From: Anaerolineae bacterium
GTDB lineage: Bacteria; Chloroflexota; Anaerolineae; Epilineales; Epilineaceae
NCBI GenBank assembly: GCA_029262755.1
Contig: JAJCYU010000038.1
Span: forward strand, 1 to 40,565
Direction of reading: 5' to 3'
Length of the DNA: 40,565 bases
Position 1 is the first letter of the stretch. The number at the start of each line of letters is the position of its first letter. Shown here one piece after another: positions 11,032 through 16,610 of this stretch. A program made the position numbers and the translations under genes. A model generated the notes under the pieces. It saw nothing but the letters and a program-made list of their open reading frames with translations, did not search any database and was not told the DNA's origin.

Positions 11032-11312
11032 CCACCGCGTCCGAACGCTTCGTACAAGCCGGCGTAAAGCTCTGCGCCAGGGGGTTCCCGCGGGACTCCG
11101 AGCGCGCCCGTGACACGCAGGAAGCGGATCCATACAACCTGCGATTTTCCGAGGGACCGCCGTGATTTTTGGTCACGTAGGCCCCCTTGTGCCGCGACCT
11201 CGCCGGGGCCCTACGGTGCTGCGTTCGCGGATGGCAGGGACCATTCTCGTGTGGTATTCTCACCGGCAACACCGTAGACGTACATTACGATGAACGAGAG
11301 GGTATAGAAACC

Positions 11313-12842
11313 ATGGACCCCACCTCAGCCCTACTGGGCGTGCTGGTGGGCTTGGTCGGCGGAGGAGGGCTGGGTTACGCCATCTTCCGCGTACAGGAGC
11401 GCCGCAAAGTACAGGCGGCGACCGATGCGGCATCGAACGTCATGAAGGAGGCCGAAGGTGCGGCGAGGGAGACCGTACTTGCGGCTAAGGACGAGGCGCT
11501 GGAAATCCGTGCGCGTGCCGAAGAAGAAGTCGGCCGCAAGCGAGGTGAGTTGGAAAAGGATCAGGAACAACTCAGCAAGCGCCGCGAAAAACTCGATCGC
11601 CGTTTTGACCAGGCCGAGCAGCGTGCCCGTACGCTAGATGAGCGGGAACGCGATCTGCAGGACCGCAGTCGCGAGATGGAACAACACGAGGAAAAGGCGC
11701 GCATCGAGTTTGCGCGCATTGCTGAGTTGACGCCCGAAGAGGCACGGATTCAGATCCTCGAGCAGGTCGAAGAAGAGACGCGTGCCGATTCGGCGCGTGT
11801 CATCCGTGATATCGAGAACGAAGCGCGCGATGCCGGCGAGGAACGTGCGCGAAAGATCGTCGTCACCTGTATCCAGCGCTGCGCTTCGGATACGGTAAGC
11901 GAGATCGTTTCCTCGACGGTCGCCTTGCCTTCCGATGAGATGAAGGGCCGCATCATCGGCCGCCAGGGACGCAACATTCGTGCCTTTGAACAAGCCACGG
12001 GCGTCGACGTCATCGTCGACGATACGCCTGAAGCCGTGACCTTGTCCTGCTTCGATCCGGTTCGACGCGAGATCGGCCGCAGGTCGTTGCTCGCGCTGAT
12101 CCAGGACGGCCGGATCCATCCGGCTCGCATCGAGCAGATCGTCAAGAAGGAAGGCGACGCGCTCGACAAGGTCCTGATCAAGGCCGGCGAGGATGCCGCT
12201 TTCGAGGCCGGCGTGCCGCGTCTCCACAAGGAGATCATTCGGCTGCTCGGTCGCCTCAAATACCGCACGAGCTACGGCCAGAACGTGCTCGACCACTCCG
12301 TGGAGGTCGCACACCTTGCGGCCATGCTGGCCCACGAGGTCGGCGCGAACCCGGAATTGGCCCGGGCCGGCGGACTGTTGCACGACATCGGCAAGGCGGT
12401 CACCCACGAGGTGGAAGGACCCCACGCGCTGGTCGGAGCCGATCTAGCTCGCAAGTACGGTGTGGGGCCGATGATCGTGAACGCGATCGCGTCCCACCAC
12501 CACGAGGAAGAGCCGGAGACGCTCGAGGCCATTCTCGTGGAGTCGGCCGATGCAATCAGCGGCGCGCGCCCCGGCGCGCGGCGTGAGTCGCTCGAGCTCT
12601 ACATCAAGCGCATCAAGGCACTTGAGAACATCGCCCGGGGTTTCCAGGGCGTCGAAGAGAGCTACGCCATCCAAGCGGGTCGCGAGATCCGCATCCTCGT
12701 TCGTCCGGAGCAGATCGACGATTTGGCCGCGGCGCGTTTGGCGCGCGACGTGGCGCGCAAGGTCGAGGAGACGCTCGAGTACCCCGGCCAGGTCAAGGTG
12801 ACGGTGATTCGTGAGACGCGCGCCGTGGACGTTGCCAAGTAG
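11313..12842 (+). CDS. rny: Ribonuclease Y (membrane-anchored endoribonuclease)
   Basis: Initiates mRNA decay at the membrane. 509 residues: N-terminal transmembrane helix (about 5-25), a long Arg/Glu-rich coiled coil (30-190), a KH RNA-binding domain with the GxxG loop GRIIGRQGR (212-220), and an HD domain with the metal pair His357-Asp358 (GLLHDIGK) and downstream AIASHHHEEEP. The frame opens at 11187, but ATG 11313 has GAGAGGG ~10 nt upstream and places the membrane helix at the N-terminus as in all RNase Y proteins. Its neighbours recA-recX upstream and spoVS downstream recall the Bacillus order recA...rny-ymdB-spoVS; no ymdB is present. A RicT homologue lies 1 kb away. Confidence 0.97.
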   Translation: MDPTSALLGVLVGLVGGGGLGYAIFRVQERRKVQAATDAASNVMKEAEGAARETVLAAKDEALEIRARAEEEVGRKRGELEKDQEQLSKRREKLDRRFDQAEQRARTLDERERDLQDRSREMEQHEEKARIEFARIAELTPEEARIQILEQVEEETRADSARVIRDIENEARDAGEERARKIVVTCIQRCASDTVSEIVSSTVALPSDEMKGRIIGRQGRNIRAFEQATGVDVIVDDTPEAVTLSCFDPVRREIGRRSLLALIQDGRIHPARIEQIVKKEGDALDKVLIKAGEDAAFEAGVPRLHKEIIRLLGRLKYRTSYGQNVLDHSVEVAHLAAMLAHEVGANPELARAGGLLHDIGKAVTHEVEGPHALVGADLARKYGVGPMIVNAIASHHHEEEPETLEAILVESADAISGARPGARRESLELYIKRIKALENIARGFQGVEESYAIQAGREIRILVRPEQIDDLAAARLARDVARKVEETLEYPGQVKVTVIRETRAVDVAK

Positions 12843-12908
12843 TGGCGGATCGGGCGGAGGTGCGCGTCTTGCCTTGGTGTCGCACGCAACATGCGCCGCA
12901 ACAGGTGC

Positions 12909-12941
12909 CCACGGTCGGAATACTCGATCCGGCCGTGGTTT
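12909..12941 (+). terminator. Hairpin after rny
   Basis: CCACGGTCGG (12909-12918) pairs with CCGGCCGTGG (12929-12938) with one G-T wobble around a 10-nt loop and is followed by TTTA. It probably ends the rny transcript before the spoVS promoter region. Confidence 0.5.
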
Positions 12942-12984
12942 AGGAATATTGAGCGATCGACCAGGATAGCGAGTCCGGCAGTGG

Positions 12985-12990
12985 TATAGT
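12985..12990 (+). promoter_or_regulatory. Possible -10 element for spoVS
   Basis: TATAGT at 12985-12990, 36 bp before the spoVS ATG. No convincing -35 at the right distance. Confidence 0.3.
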
Positions 12991-13026
12991 GCCTAACCGT
13001 GGTATCCCCCCGTGGAAGGTCGAACA

Positions 13027-13527
13027 ATGCCTGATATGATCAAGGTCTCCGCGCAGTCCCTCACGACCGCAGTGGCCGGAGCGATCGCGGGCGTAGTCCG
13101 CGACCACGGCCGCGCCGATGTGCAAGCAATCGGCGCAAGCGCGGTCAATCAGGCCGTCAAGGCCATAGCCATCGCACACGGCTATCTCGAAGAAGACGAG
13201 TTGGACATCTACTGTCTGCCGGCCTTCGTCGAGGTGGACATCGGTGGCCAAGAGCGCACGGCCATTCGCTTCGCGGTCGAGGTGCAAGGCAACGACTTCG
13301 TTCCGCGCCTAGCAGGCGGACAAGACGGTTCGGATAGCCACGGCAAGCGTGGCGACTATGCGCGCCGAGCCCGTGGTACCGCGTCCTCCGCACATCCGAA
13401 CGCCGGCGATACCCAGGACGAGCACGCATCGGGCGGGCAGGCGCAGGACGATACCGAGCCGCCCTTTGGCTCCGTCTCCGATTCCGGAGAGCGTGGCGCC
13501 TACCCCTACGCCGAGGAAGAAGACTAA
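13027..13527 (+). CDS. spoVS: SpoVS-family protein with long disordered C-terminal tail
   Basis: Residues 1-90 match the small Alba-like SpoVS fold: MIKVSAQSLTTAVAGAIAG, ADVQAIGASAVNQAVKAIAIA, LPAFVEVDIGGQERTAIRFAVEV. In Bacillus the protein is ~86 residues and affects sporulation; in non-sporulating bacteria its role is unknown. Here 166 residues: the last ~75 are hydrophilic and low in complexity (Gly, Asp, Ser, Ala, His), ending in an acidic EEED. ATG 13027 was preferred to the GTG at 13012 because GGAAGGT lies 6-7 nt upstream. It sits between rny and the convergent ricT. Confidence 0.88.
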   Translation: MPDMIKVSAQSLTTAVAGAIAGVVRDHGRADVQAIGASAVNQAVKAIAIAHGYLEEDELDIYCLPAFVEVDIGGQERTAIRFAVEVQGNDFVPRLAGGQDGSDSHGKRGDYARRARGTASSAHPNAGDTQDEHASGGQAQDDTEPPFGSVSDSGERGAYPYAEEED

Positions 13528-13764
13528 ATCTTCGTCTAGCTTGCATTCGCGGGCTCGGCAGCCACGGCGCTCGCGCCGGCGGTCCGCTGGTGATCGGCTA
13601 GCGCTCCACGATCGCCTCGTCCCATCGAAGCGCCTGCGCGTCACATTAGCTGCCTCACTACCCGCATCGGCAAGCTGGTTGGACTACTAGGTCGTGTCGC
13701 TGCCTCTCCGTACCGCAACGGCCGTGCACGACGGAATCGTCGCGCACGGCACCGGTACGCCACT

Positions 13765-13796
13765 CGTACAAGTTCGCGTTCACGCGAACTCGTGCG
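13765..13796. terminator. Inverted repeat between convergent spoVS and ricT
   Basis: AGTTCGCG (13771-13778) - TTCA - CGCGAACT (13783-13790) is a perfect 8-bp stem. After one mismatch it extends by five more pairs (13765-13769 with 13792-13796). It has no U tract, but it stands in the convergent gap just beyond the ricT stop. Terminator or transcript-end structure for either gene. Confidence 0.45.
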
Positions 13797-13804
13797 CAGT
13801 CGGC

Positions 13805-15547
13805 TCAGGTCTGCGAACCTCCGCCACTACCGCCGCCCGTGCCGCTATCGCCGCCACCGGAATTTCCGCTTCCGGAGCCGCCACTGGGCTTCCGCCGCCT
13901 TCGCCGCCGCTTGCGGCGCTTCGCACCGCCCTCGCCGGCAGGGCCTCCCGGAGCGCTATCACCTCGGCTACGCGATCCACTATCTTGCGGGCCACGATCC
14001 GTCGAAGGCGCTCCGCTATCACGGCTGGAATCGGCGCCCGAACCGGAGTCGTTCGGGCCGCTACCGCTAGCGCTGCTCCCACCACCGCGACGACGCCGTC
14101 CGCGTCCGCGGCCTCGGCCACGCCCACGTCCGCGGCCGCGGCCCTTGCCGCCGCCCTCGCGATCCGCGTCACCGGAACCCTCACCTGTCGTCCGCGGCGC
14201 TGTGGCTCCCCCTGTGGCTCCTCCGGTGTCGCCTCGCGGCGTGGTCGGGTCTCCGGGGACCGGGGCCTGATCGTCCGTCGCTTCGCGGGATCGAGCTTCT
14301 GCATCATCGTCGCGTGATGCGCCGCCGCGGCCCGATCGACCTCGCCGTGAACGGCTTGCAGCTTTTTCGCGCTCGCTCTTGCGTACGGCGCGCTCCGCGG
14401 CGGCGGCCCTTGCCTTCTCGGCCGGGGTACCGCCCGACGCCTCGGCCTCGCCGAAGGCCTTCGTCCAACGCTCACGCTGCTCGACGAAGGCGTCGCCGTC
14501 CACGACCACGCGCGAACCGTCTTCCCAGAGCACGGACACCTTGCGCGTCAGGAGGTTGACGTCCACCACGCGGCCTCGACCGACCGCGCTGGTGAGCTTC
14601 GCACCCACCTTGGGCATGCCGGTCTTGAGGTCGCGATATTGATCATCCTCGAATGCCAGGCAGCACAACAGTTTGCCGCACACGCCGCTGATCTCGTTAG
14701 GGTTGAGGGGTAGTCCCTGGTTCTTGGCCATGCGGATCGAGATCGGCTGGAAGTCCGGCATCCAGGAGCTGCAGCACAACTCGCGGCCGCAGCGATCGAT
14801 GCCACCGATGAGCTTGGCCTTGTCGCGCGGACCCACCTGGCGCAACAGGACGCGCGTCTTGCGGCTCCGCGCCAGATCGCGCACGAGCAGCCGGAAATCA
14901 ACGCGCTTCTTCTCGCTCGTGAAGTAGACCGTCAGGCAGCTGCCGTCGTAGTTGTATTCGGCCCGCACGGCGCGCATCGGCAGCCGGTGCTGCTTGATTT
15001 GCTCGCTGGCCTCGCTAAGCGCCGCCGGGGCTTCCGTCTCGAGCCGCGCCATGGTGCGAATGTCATTCTCCGTCGCACGGCGCTTGATGCGCTTGAGCTT
15101 GCCGAGCCGCGAGCCGACGACCTGATCCGGCGCGATGACGACGTAGCCGGCCTCGATGCCCTGGGCCGTATCGACCACGACCTGTTCGCCGACGGTAAGG
15201 TCCGGCTCCGCGCCGGCATGGAAGTAGTAGATCCGCCCCGCACGCTTGAACCGTACGCCCACGACAGGCGGACCTTCGCGCTTGGGCTTCGACTCGCTGC
15301 GATCTCGATCCGCATCCGGCGCGTCGTCTCCGTCTGCCCCCACTTCCTCCGCTCCAGCCGGGTGTGCGGTCGCTTCGTCCGATGCGGCGGGTACGGCAGC
15401 ATCGGTCGCGGGAACATCCTGCCGCGCGGGCGATGCCGCCGATTCTTCGGGCGACGGTGCCTCAGCGGCGGACGGCCTGGAATCCGAGGCGTCCGCGGAG
15501 CGCGGGGTGGAGGCTGCGGCGTCGTCCTGTTCGTGTCGTTCGTCCAT
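13805..15547 (-). CDS. ricT: RicT/YaaT-type PSP1-domain Fe-S protein with RGG-like tail
   Basis: In Bacillus, RicT (YaaT) with RicA and RicF binds Fe-S clusters and adjusts RNase Y cleavage. Here: an acidic/Ala-rich disordered start (1-90), the PSP1 core (about 92-360) with both cysteine motifs, C253-x4-C258-C259 and C290-x4-C295-C296, then a ~220-residue tail. The tail holds an uninterrupted Gly-Arg run (about 468-489, DNA 14081-14146), a Lys/Arg block (543-553) and a Gly/Ser end (554-580). Typical RicT proteins are ~275 residues, so this one is about twice as long because of the two flanks. It lies 16 bp after holB, the same pair order as in Bacillus (holB-yaaT), and convergent with rny-spoVS. 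The core assignment is firm; the RNA-binding role of the tail is inference. Confidence 0.92.
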   Translation of the reverse strand: MDERHEQDDAAASTPRSADASDSRPSAAEAPSPEESAASPARQDVPATDAAVPAASDEATAHPAGAEEVGADGDDAPDADRDRSESKPKREGPPVVGVRFKRAGRIYYFHAGAEPDLTVGEQVVVDTAQGIEAGYVVIAPDQVVGSRLGKLKRIKRRATENDIRTMARLETEAPAALSEASEQIKQHRLPMRAVRAEYNYDGSCLTVYFTSEKKRVDFRLLVRDLARSRKTRVLLRQVGPRDKAKLIGGIDRCGRELCCSSWMPDFQPISIRMAKNQGLPLNPNEISGVCGKLLCCLAFEDDQYRDLKTGMPKVGAKLTSAVGRGRVVDVNLLTRKVSVLWEDGSRVVVDGDAFVEQRERWTKAFGEAEASGGTPAEKARAAAAERAVRKSEREKAASRSRRGRSGRGGASRDDDAEARSREATDDQAPVPGDPTTPRGDTGGATGGATAPRTTGEGSGDADREGGGKGRGRGRGRGRGRGRGRRRRGGGSSASGSGPNDSGSGADSSRDSGAPSTDRGPQDSGSRSRGDSAPGGPAGEGGAKRRKRRRRRRKPSGGSGSGNSGGGDSGTGGGSGGGSQT

Positions 15548-15563
15548 GGTGGACGGCTCTCTC

Positions 15564-16610
15564 TCAGGCCGTGGAAACGGCCGGTGGATGGTTCAGGGTA
15601 GGCAGGCCGAGGAGTAGGACCTCCAAGACCAGCTGCGGGCTACCGTGGGCGGCCAACTCCGCCAGGGCGCGTTCGGTGGCGCGCAGGGCGTCGACGATAC
15701 GTGCGGTGGGGAGGGAGGCCGCTACGGGGCGCATCAACGGGCCGCGATCACCGTGTACGAAGGCCTCATCCACCCCGAGGTTGAGCAGGAGTAGATCGCG
15801 CCACCAGCCGTTCCAGAGTGTGAGTCCCGCCGGCAACGCGTCGCGATCCTTGGCCAGCGCATCGGCCAAAGCCATGCGCTCGGCTCGATCGGCGCCAACA
15901 ATGGTCTGTACTCGGTCGAGCCACTGCTCGTGCAAGGCGAGGGCATCCGCGTCGCCCAAAATCGCGATCGCGCGGCCCAGACAGCCGGCGCTCAGGCGCG
16001 CAAGCCGATCCGCTTCCGCGGCATCGGCGCCCCATCCAGCTTGGAGCGCAGACGCAGCGTCGGGCGGGGATAGAGGGCGCAGCAACAGACGGCGCGCACG
16101 GGATCGGATCGTCGGGAGCACTTCGGGCTCCGCGGCCGTGGTCAGCAACAGCGTGGCGTGTGCGGGCGGCTCTTCGAGCAACTTGAGCAAGCTGTTCGCT
16201 GCGCCGATCGACGCGGCCTCGATGAGCGGCAGCACGGCCACGCGATGCGCGGACTCGCTCGGCGCGAGCGCCAGCGCGGACTGCAATTCGCGCGCGGCCT
16301 CGATGCGCAGCGGTGTCTCGACCCAATGCAGGTCCGCATGGCCGCCCTGGGCGACGAGCCGGCAGGCCCGACATGCGCCGCAGGGTTGCTCTTCGGGTGC
16401 GCTCGTGCACAGCAACGCCTGCGCGATGCGACGCGCGAGCGTGCGCTTGCCGACGCCTTCCGGACCGGCCAGCAATACGGCGTGACCGAGCGAACCGGAG
16501 CGCGCGGCGCGCTCCAGGCCCGCGAGGACCTTGGCGTGGCCGTGAATTGGCACCCGATGGGTGGCCGACGTGGCGAGCACGTCGTTGGCTTGCGGGGAGG
16601 CGGACGTCAT
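15564..16610 (-). CDS. holB: DNA polymerase III delta' subunit
   Basis: Clamp-loader subunit. 348 residues: Walker A-like GPEGVGKR (49-56), a four-cysteine zinc module (Cys68, 77, 80, 83; PCGACRAC), then AANSLLKLLEEPP and PTIRSRARRLLLRPL, the region of the SRC-type arginine finger; here the motif reads SRAR, without the usual Cys. The C-terminal third is helical and weakly conserved, as usual. Its place directly upstream of ricT is conserved in Gram-positive bacteria. 54 bp separate it from the propeller gene upstream. Confidence 0.93.
   Translation of the reverse strand: MTSASPQANDVLATSATHRVPIHGHAKVLAGLERAARSGSLGHAVLLAGPEGVGKRTLARRIAQALLCTSAPEEQPCGACRACRLVAQGGHADLHWVETPLRIEAARELQSALALAPSESAHRVAVLPLIEAASIGAANSLLKLLEEPPAHATLLLTTAAEPEVLPTIRSRARRLLLRPLSPPDAASALQAGWGADAAEADRLARLSAGCLGRAIAILGDADALALHEQWLDRVQTIVGADRAERMALADALAKDRDALPAGLTLWNGWWRDLLLLNLGVDEAFVHGDRGPLMRPVAASLPTARIVDALRATERALAELAAHGSPQLVLEVLLLGLPTLNHPPAVSTA

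Follow-up and report, generated by a model that had tools for sequence, protein, structure and literature searches.

The contig analysed here (the window, 40,565 nt from an Anaerolineae bacterium of the Chloroflexota) carries a ricT gene whose product continues for 229 residues beyond the RicT core, which ends at residue 351. These residues include 48 K/R, 30 D/E and 57 Gly. The locus raises the question of what such a tail would do on a cofactor of RNase Y, and whether it is peculiar to this genome. A sequence-only reading had proposed that the tail could hold mRNA near the membrane nuclease. The coordinates of the features are given in Table 1.

Table 1. Positions in the window of the ricT gene, its neighbours and the parts of its product.
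Feature	Residues	Position	Strand	Remarks
rny (RNase Y)		11187..12842	(+)	convergent to ricT; TIGR03319 655 bits, cut-off 454.35
spoVS		13012..13527	(+)	between rny and ricT; PF04232 E=3.7e-34
ricT (yaaT) ORF	580 aa	13805..15547	(-)	NF041131 RicT_YaaT_fam and Pfam PSP1
Gly/Ser-rich C-terminal end	557-580	13808..13879	(-)	
Disordered tail (predicted)	403-580	13808..14341	(-)	AlphaFold2, pLDDT mostly <50
Lys/Arg block KRRKRRRRRRK	543-553 (K543-K553)	13889..13921	(-)	five different codons
(Gly-Arg)8 run	469-484 (G469-R484)	14096..14143	(-)	mixed synonymous codons
Predicted helix between core and disordered tail	375-402	14342..14425	(-)	AlphaFold2, block pLDDT about 72-88
Conserved RicT core	92-351	14495..15274	(-)	with CX4CCX30CX4CC
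Acidic N-terminal region (predicted disordered)	1-91	15275..15547	(-)	24 D/E vs 9 K/R; AlphaFold2
holB (DNA polymerase III delta')		15564..16610	(-)	16 bp upstream of ricT

The gene encodes a bona fide RicT. Its product matched the family model NF041131 RicT_YaaT_fam at 240.3 bits (cut-off 70) in a profile search, and Pfam PSP1 (PF04468) matched at residues 152-238 with 83.2 bits (cut-off 27). The normal core with both C-x4-CC motifs at the classical spacing, as read earlier, was borne out, the six cysteines being spaced CX4CCX30CX4CC as in the published pattern of B. subtilis RicT (PMC6751060). Ligand cysteines are present for a putative [4Fe-4S] cluster. C259, the equivalent of B. subtilis RicT C167, was invariant in an alignment of 37 RicT sequences; the codons of C258-C259 occupy positions 14771-14776 of the window. 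This cysteine was kept in the 37 RicTs although most Chloroflexota genomes lack RicA/RicF. In two loci of one family (L063 and L068, family f18), the last Cys of RicT is changed to Ser (CGRLLCSLA), a position that corresponds to Bacillus C204, reported to be dispensable for cluster binding. Four genomes (G310, G099, G149, and G255) had two PSP1 matches each, possibly RicT paralogues.

No solved RicT structure was found by sequence, the sole match being SNF2 (E 0.025) to the low-complexity tail. When the predicted core (residues 92-365) was searched using Foldseek, repeated matches were obtained to RbfA and uS3/KH folds in the PSP1 region and to Tudor domains in the C-terminal barrel, all with E 0.03-0.3, and none fell below E 0.001. 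One RbfA match was 2dyj (TM 0.58 on target, E=0.075). RbfA and type II KH-like folds recurred as structural matches with individually insignificant E-values (0.05-0.3) and without a sequence match to RicT. As a lead only, the core is a possible KH-like RNA- or ribosome-binding fold, which would suit contact of RicT with RNA or the ribosome.

The two minus-strand genes, holB and ricT, probably share an operon; B. subtilis has the same holB-yaaT linkage. A HolB match adjoins ricT in 81 of 140 Chloroflexota loci, and SpoVS does so in 23 of 140. The convergent rny-spoVS/ricT-holB cluster (11187-16610) was kept in the three genera of the family and in G004 (L005) of the order. The rny gene thus lies close to ricT in the window; its true start is probably downstream of the listed TTG. 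No RNA element in the window matched Rfam. Second translated ORFs across the tail, at 13694-14317 or 13839-14270 on the plus strand and at 13780-14475 on the minus strand, were considered and rejected by inspection as low-complexity shadow ORFs.

The structure of the window RicT was predicted using AlphaFold2 with a 37-sequence alignment. The disordered part of the tail comes to about 178 residues in this prediction, and low confidence is confined to about residues 403-580, with a predicted helix ahead of it, so the earlier figure of about 220 residues without fold was too long. The alternating Gly-Arg (GR) run, which had been placed at residues 468-489 (14081-14146), is real, and its exact extent is that given in Table 1, the rest being its flanks (GGGK before and RRRGGG after). 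The Lys/Arg block and the Gly/Ser end were found where they had been read. The length of the 16-residue GR run was reached in 0/20,000 shuffles of the tail's own residues (maximum 10), and that of the 11-residue K/R run also in 0/20,000. A tri-RG element consists of three or more RG dipeptides close together, and the run has eight in tandem. It is an RG repeat rather than the RGG-like sequence first described, and just two isolated RGG triplets, far apart, occur in the tail, which makes no tri-RGG element. The tail has no Cys.

The acidic N-terminus (residues 1-91) did not figure in the earlier reading; its charge is opposite to that of the C-terminal tail. RicT of a sister genus (G002, L002), with a core 66-73% identical to that of the window RicT, also has an acidic N-terminus (30 D/E and 6 K/R in 93 residues), and its tail is long, with R/P/D repeats and then RPRRQRRRRRGGGGGG. 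A third genus of the family (G001, L003) has just 19 residues after the RicT core. In that protein, no acidic N-terminal extension is evident, and the basic tail is likewise missing.

The tail is part of the ORF, which stays open to the end, contrary to the possibility that the protein is not translated past the core. GC3 was 0.66 in the tail vs 0.86-0.87 in the core, so codon-position composition alone does not establish the reading frame. Support comes from the sister genus, in which a similar R-block followed by poly-Gly closes the tail in frame. A wrong frame or a frameshift at the tail was provisionally rejected on these grounds, despite the low GC3.

Tails were then compared over 140 Chloroflexota loci, 136 of them with a closed frame, in a non-random sample weighted to close and high-scoring relatives. 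The phylum was assigned from the same-class locus L021 and the same-phylum locus L034, since their tails match those of the named records L169 (Ardenticatenia) and L173 (Chloroflexota). For the outside set, 80 named loci were taken from a public collection of genomes, and 69 of them were treated as non-Chloroflexota, nearly all of these being Bacillota. A basic C-terminal end was defined as at least 7 K/R in a 15-residue stretch of the final 60 residues. Of the 136 Chloroflexota RicTs, 59 had such an end, including 12 that also have Cys, and these 59 are spread over 31 of 76 family codes; the remaining tails were Cys-rich only (32), acidic (8), short (30), or other (7). The basic level in the last 60 residues was reached by 62/136 RicTs vs 4/242 other long ORFs in the same loci. 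Basic C-termini were found in 10/69 non-Chloroflexota (mostly Bacillota) RicTs. K/R runs of 6 or more occurred in 37/136 Chloroflexota RicTs, 0/242 other ORFs, and 1/69 non-Chloroflexota RicTs. On a FastTree tree of 215 RicT cores, the basic state required 30 changes, compared with a shuffled minimum of 51 and a mean of 60. This value below the shuffled minimum, together with the spread over family codes, indicates that the basic end is inherited and has also been repeatedly gained or lost.

Among the sampled RicTs, only that of the window has a GR run longer than 6 residues. The basic end recurs across families, and the long GR run was found in one genome. It had also been stated that no RicT with such a tail is described; none was described in the papers found, but basic tails are common in Chloroflexota RicT sequences. 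Going by the sampled sequences, only the GR run is special to the window genome, where it decorates, as a lineage-specific feature, a kind of tail that many RicTs of the phylum have.

A second recurrent tail type is Cys/Gly-rich and corresponds to the Cys-rich class above (at least two Cys, no basic end). Examples are CGSGGCGSGGG, CSTCGGCS, and CDRHEGGGCTCG, and such tails were seen in L014, L016, L018, L037-L043, L053, L055, L058, L074 and others. They could bind metal or Fe-S in place of the missing ligands from RicA/RicF. Outside Chloroflexota, RicT of a Selenomonas ruminantium MAG (L222) has a 148-residue R-rich tail, and Com_YlbF was not found in that genome.

The inventory of partners differs from that of B. 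subtilis. RNase Y was present in 216/216 good Chloroflexota genomes, PSP1/RicT in 140/216, and Com_YlbF (the RicA/RicF family) in 9/216. The Com_YlbF model (PF06133) had no match in the window genome (G000, 84% complete), in the sister genus G002 (96% complete), or in G001. It matched 26/28 named non-Chloroflexota genomes and can therefore detect the family, though it may overlook divergent partners. The sequence-only reading assumed the B. subtilis setting for RicT, but no RicA/RicF was detected in this genome, nor in any but a few of its relatives. In B. subtilis, the only organism in which a stable RicT-RNase Y complex has been shown, RicA and RicF are required for loading RicT stably on RNase Y (PMC10470536), and they share the second Fe-S cluster with RicT C167 (PMC6751060).

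The reading that we prefer, with a probability of roughly 0.55, is that the basic tail acts as an arm that binds RNA or ribosomes and supplies RNase Y, and that RicT is here independent of RicA/RicF. RicT would work without these two proteins, its core binding an Fe-S cluster and partnering RNase Y. The basic disordered C-terminal tail would serve as a non-specific, multivalent arm for RNA or ribosomes and would raise the local substrate concentration at the membrane-anchored RNase Y, and the GR run would be a lineage-specific extra RNA-binding block. The analysis itself shows the RicT identity, the composition of the tail, its predicted disorder, the recurrence across families, the codon evidence of amino-acid-level constraint (see below), and the partner inventory. 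Low-complexity regions rich in Arg are over-represented among prokaryotic RNA-binding proteins (PMC6821194). RNase Y and ribosomal proteins are recovered in pull-downs of tagged YaaT, and rRNA degradation is driven or started by the Y-complex (PMC13230545); RicT may direct Rny to transcripts (PMC10470536), and YaaT dynamics depend on ongoing transcription (PMC8945944). RNA binding, condensates, and membrane tethering are each suggested for the tail by analogy, and we infer that RNase Y is contacted without RicA/RicF. No biochemical data on any Chloroflexota RicT were found in the literature. Against the proposed arm, the tail is dispensable, as in G001 and the 30/136 short tails; other Chloroflexota RicTs have Cys-rich or acidic tails, and the GR run is in one genome.

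It is unlikely, on balance, that the polybasic tail instead attaches to anionic lipids of the membrane, or to an acidic surface of RNase Y, and so keeps RicT at the membrane next to the nuclease, with RNA binding secondary. The tail would then do the delivery that falls to RicA/RicF in B. subtilis, where RicT needs them to join RNase Y stably (PMC10470536), and Com_YlbF is nearly absent in Chloroflexota. Raw counts do tie basic tails to Com_YlbF absence, with 60/149 in genomes without it vs 8/57 with it overall (raw Fisher p = 0.0003) and 6/16 vs 4/53 in non-Chloroflexota (raw Fisher p = 0.008). The association was lost, however, on phylogenetically independent pairs (0.7 for, 1.5 against, median p = 1). 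Within Chloroflexota, its direction was opposite, as 4/4 RicTs in genomes with Com_YlbF carry basic tails. Gly-Arg repeats without hydrophobic residues are, moreover, more typical of RNA binding than of membrane binding. On these independent pairs and this reversal, the notion that the tail replaces RicA/RicF was not supported.

That the tail is neutral low-complexity sequence without particular function, extended by slippage in a genome of high GC, is also improbable, although several observations agree with it. Tail length varies widely, with G001 tail-less, and basic ends are commoner at high GC (24/38 above 65% GC). Tandem Repeats Finder reported a degenerate 6-base array at the GR run (81% matches), from which the run may have started as an expansion. 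By eye, GR-pattern sites elsewhere in the genome resemble GC-rich repeats of six bases, and many of them lie in frames with no obvious gene. The codons argue the other way. In the GR run, 8/16 codons depart from GGC/CGC, in every case at the third position, so that half of the third positions and 0/32 first and second positions are changed, a count partly conditioned on the run being intact. Changes at third positions only would hardly be expected of an array that is recent or neutral. Arg runs are likewise written in mixed codons, AGA/CGN mixtures included (in L027, CGT AGA CGA CGT AGA CGC CGT CGC AGA CGC), and are therefore not slippage products. Basic ends also occur at 46-54% GC (L027, L029, L100), and L027, at 53% GC, has RRRRRRRRRR. 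The contrast between 59/136 RicT basic ends and 4/242 C-termini of other ORFs, which seldom score in the same loci, led us to reject a GC-rich artefact. Recent slippage in one strain, named earlier as the case that would undo the proposal, fails for the basic end, given its presence in 31/76 family codes, the mixed codons, and the low-GC cases; it is partly kept for the GR run, which was seen in one genome only.

Binding of the basic tail to DNA, or action at replication forks rather than in mRNA decay, is quite improbable. The gene stands directly behind holB, and a HolB match adjoins it in more than half of the Chloroflexota loci counted above, but the same linkage is found in B. subtilis, where the established role of RicT (YaaT) is RNA processing. 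By sequence inspection, there is no AT-hook (GRP) core in the window RicT tail. Lys-rich low-complexity regions are enriched in DNA-binding proteins, whereas an Arg/Gly composition favours RNA over DNA (PMC6821194); a paper on RNase recruitment to B. subtilis replication forks mentions YaaT (PMC11352351). Just as little is to be expected of a tail that mainly drives condensation, its acidic N-terminal partner (1-91) and the basic GR and KR blocks phase-separating with RNA into RNase Y bodies like RNase E or Rho condensates, since the basic tails of the phylum mostly consist of one short block of low valence, even though the block charge pattern fits and complex coacervation with RNA can be promoted by K/R blocks together with Gly or Glu-rich patches (PMC13269538).

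With the RNA- or ribosome-binding arm retained as the preferred reading, the protein can be set beside known systems. With B. subtilis RicT (YaaT) of the Y-complex (RicA/RicF/RicT and RNase Y), it shares the PSP1 core, the cysteine pattern, the holB neighbour, and RNase Y in the genome; it differs in its 580 aa, in the acidic N-terminal and basic C-terminal regions predicted to be disordered, and in a genome where, as in the sister genus, Com_YlbF was not found. Like the RG/RGG-motif low-complexity regions of RNA-binding proteins, the tail has eight tandem Gly-Arg dipeptides and Gly-rich flanks, but it is RG and not RGG, it sits on a bacterial RNase cofactor, and its RNA binding is putative. 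The C-terminal region of RNase E and the IDR of Bacteroides Rho (PMC4435900, PMC13269538) are likewise charged disordered regions on an RNA-processing or transcription factor, whereas the tail described here is on the cofactor of a nuclease, not on the nuclease, and is unrelated in sequence.

A broader proposal is that, in Chloroflexota and perhaps other bacteria without RicA/RicF, RicT is a stand-alone specificity factor for RNase Y whose own variable tail, either basic and RNA-gripping or Cys-rich and binding metal or Fe-S, does the substrate capture and cluster completion done by RicA/RicF in Bacillota. We regard this as doubtful, and the raw association behind it was lost under phylogenetic control. 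If true, the tail would be a lineage-tuned selector for RNase Y.

The value of the finding is moderate, since a basic tail, once seen, would be expected to bind RNA, and its function is putative. In B. subtilis, the way in which RicT gives RNase Y its specificity is entangled with RicA and RicF. The nuclease cofactor, as distinct from the nuclease, would be a further bacterial location for disordered sequence of the RNA-binding type. Chloroflexota offer a simpler system, where RicT and RNase Y are retained with hardly any RicA/RicF and where RicT often has a separable basic tail.
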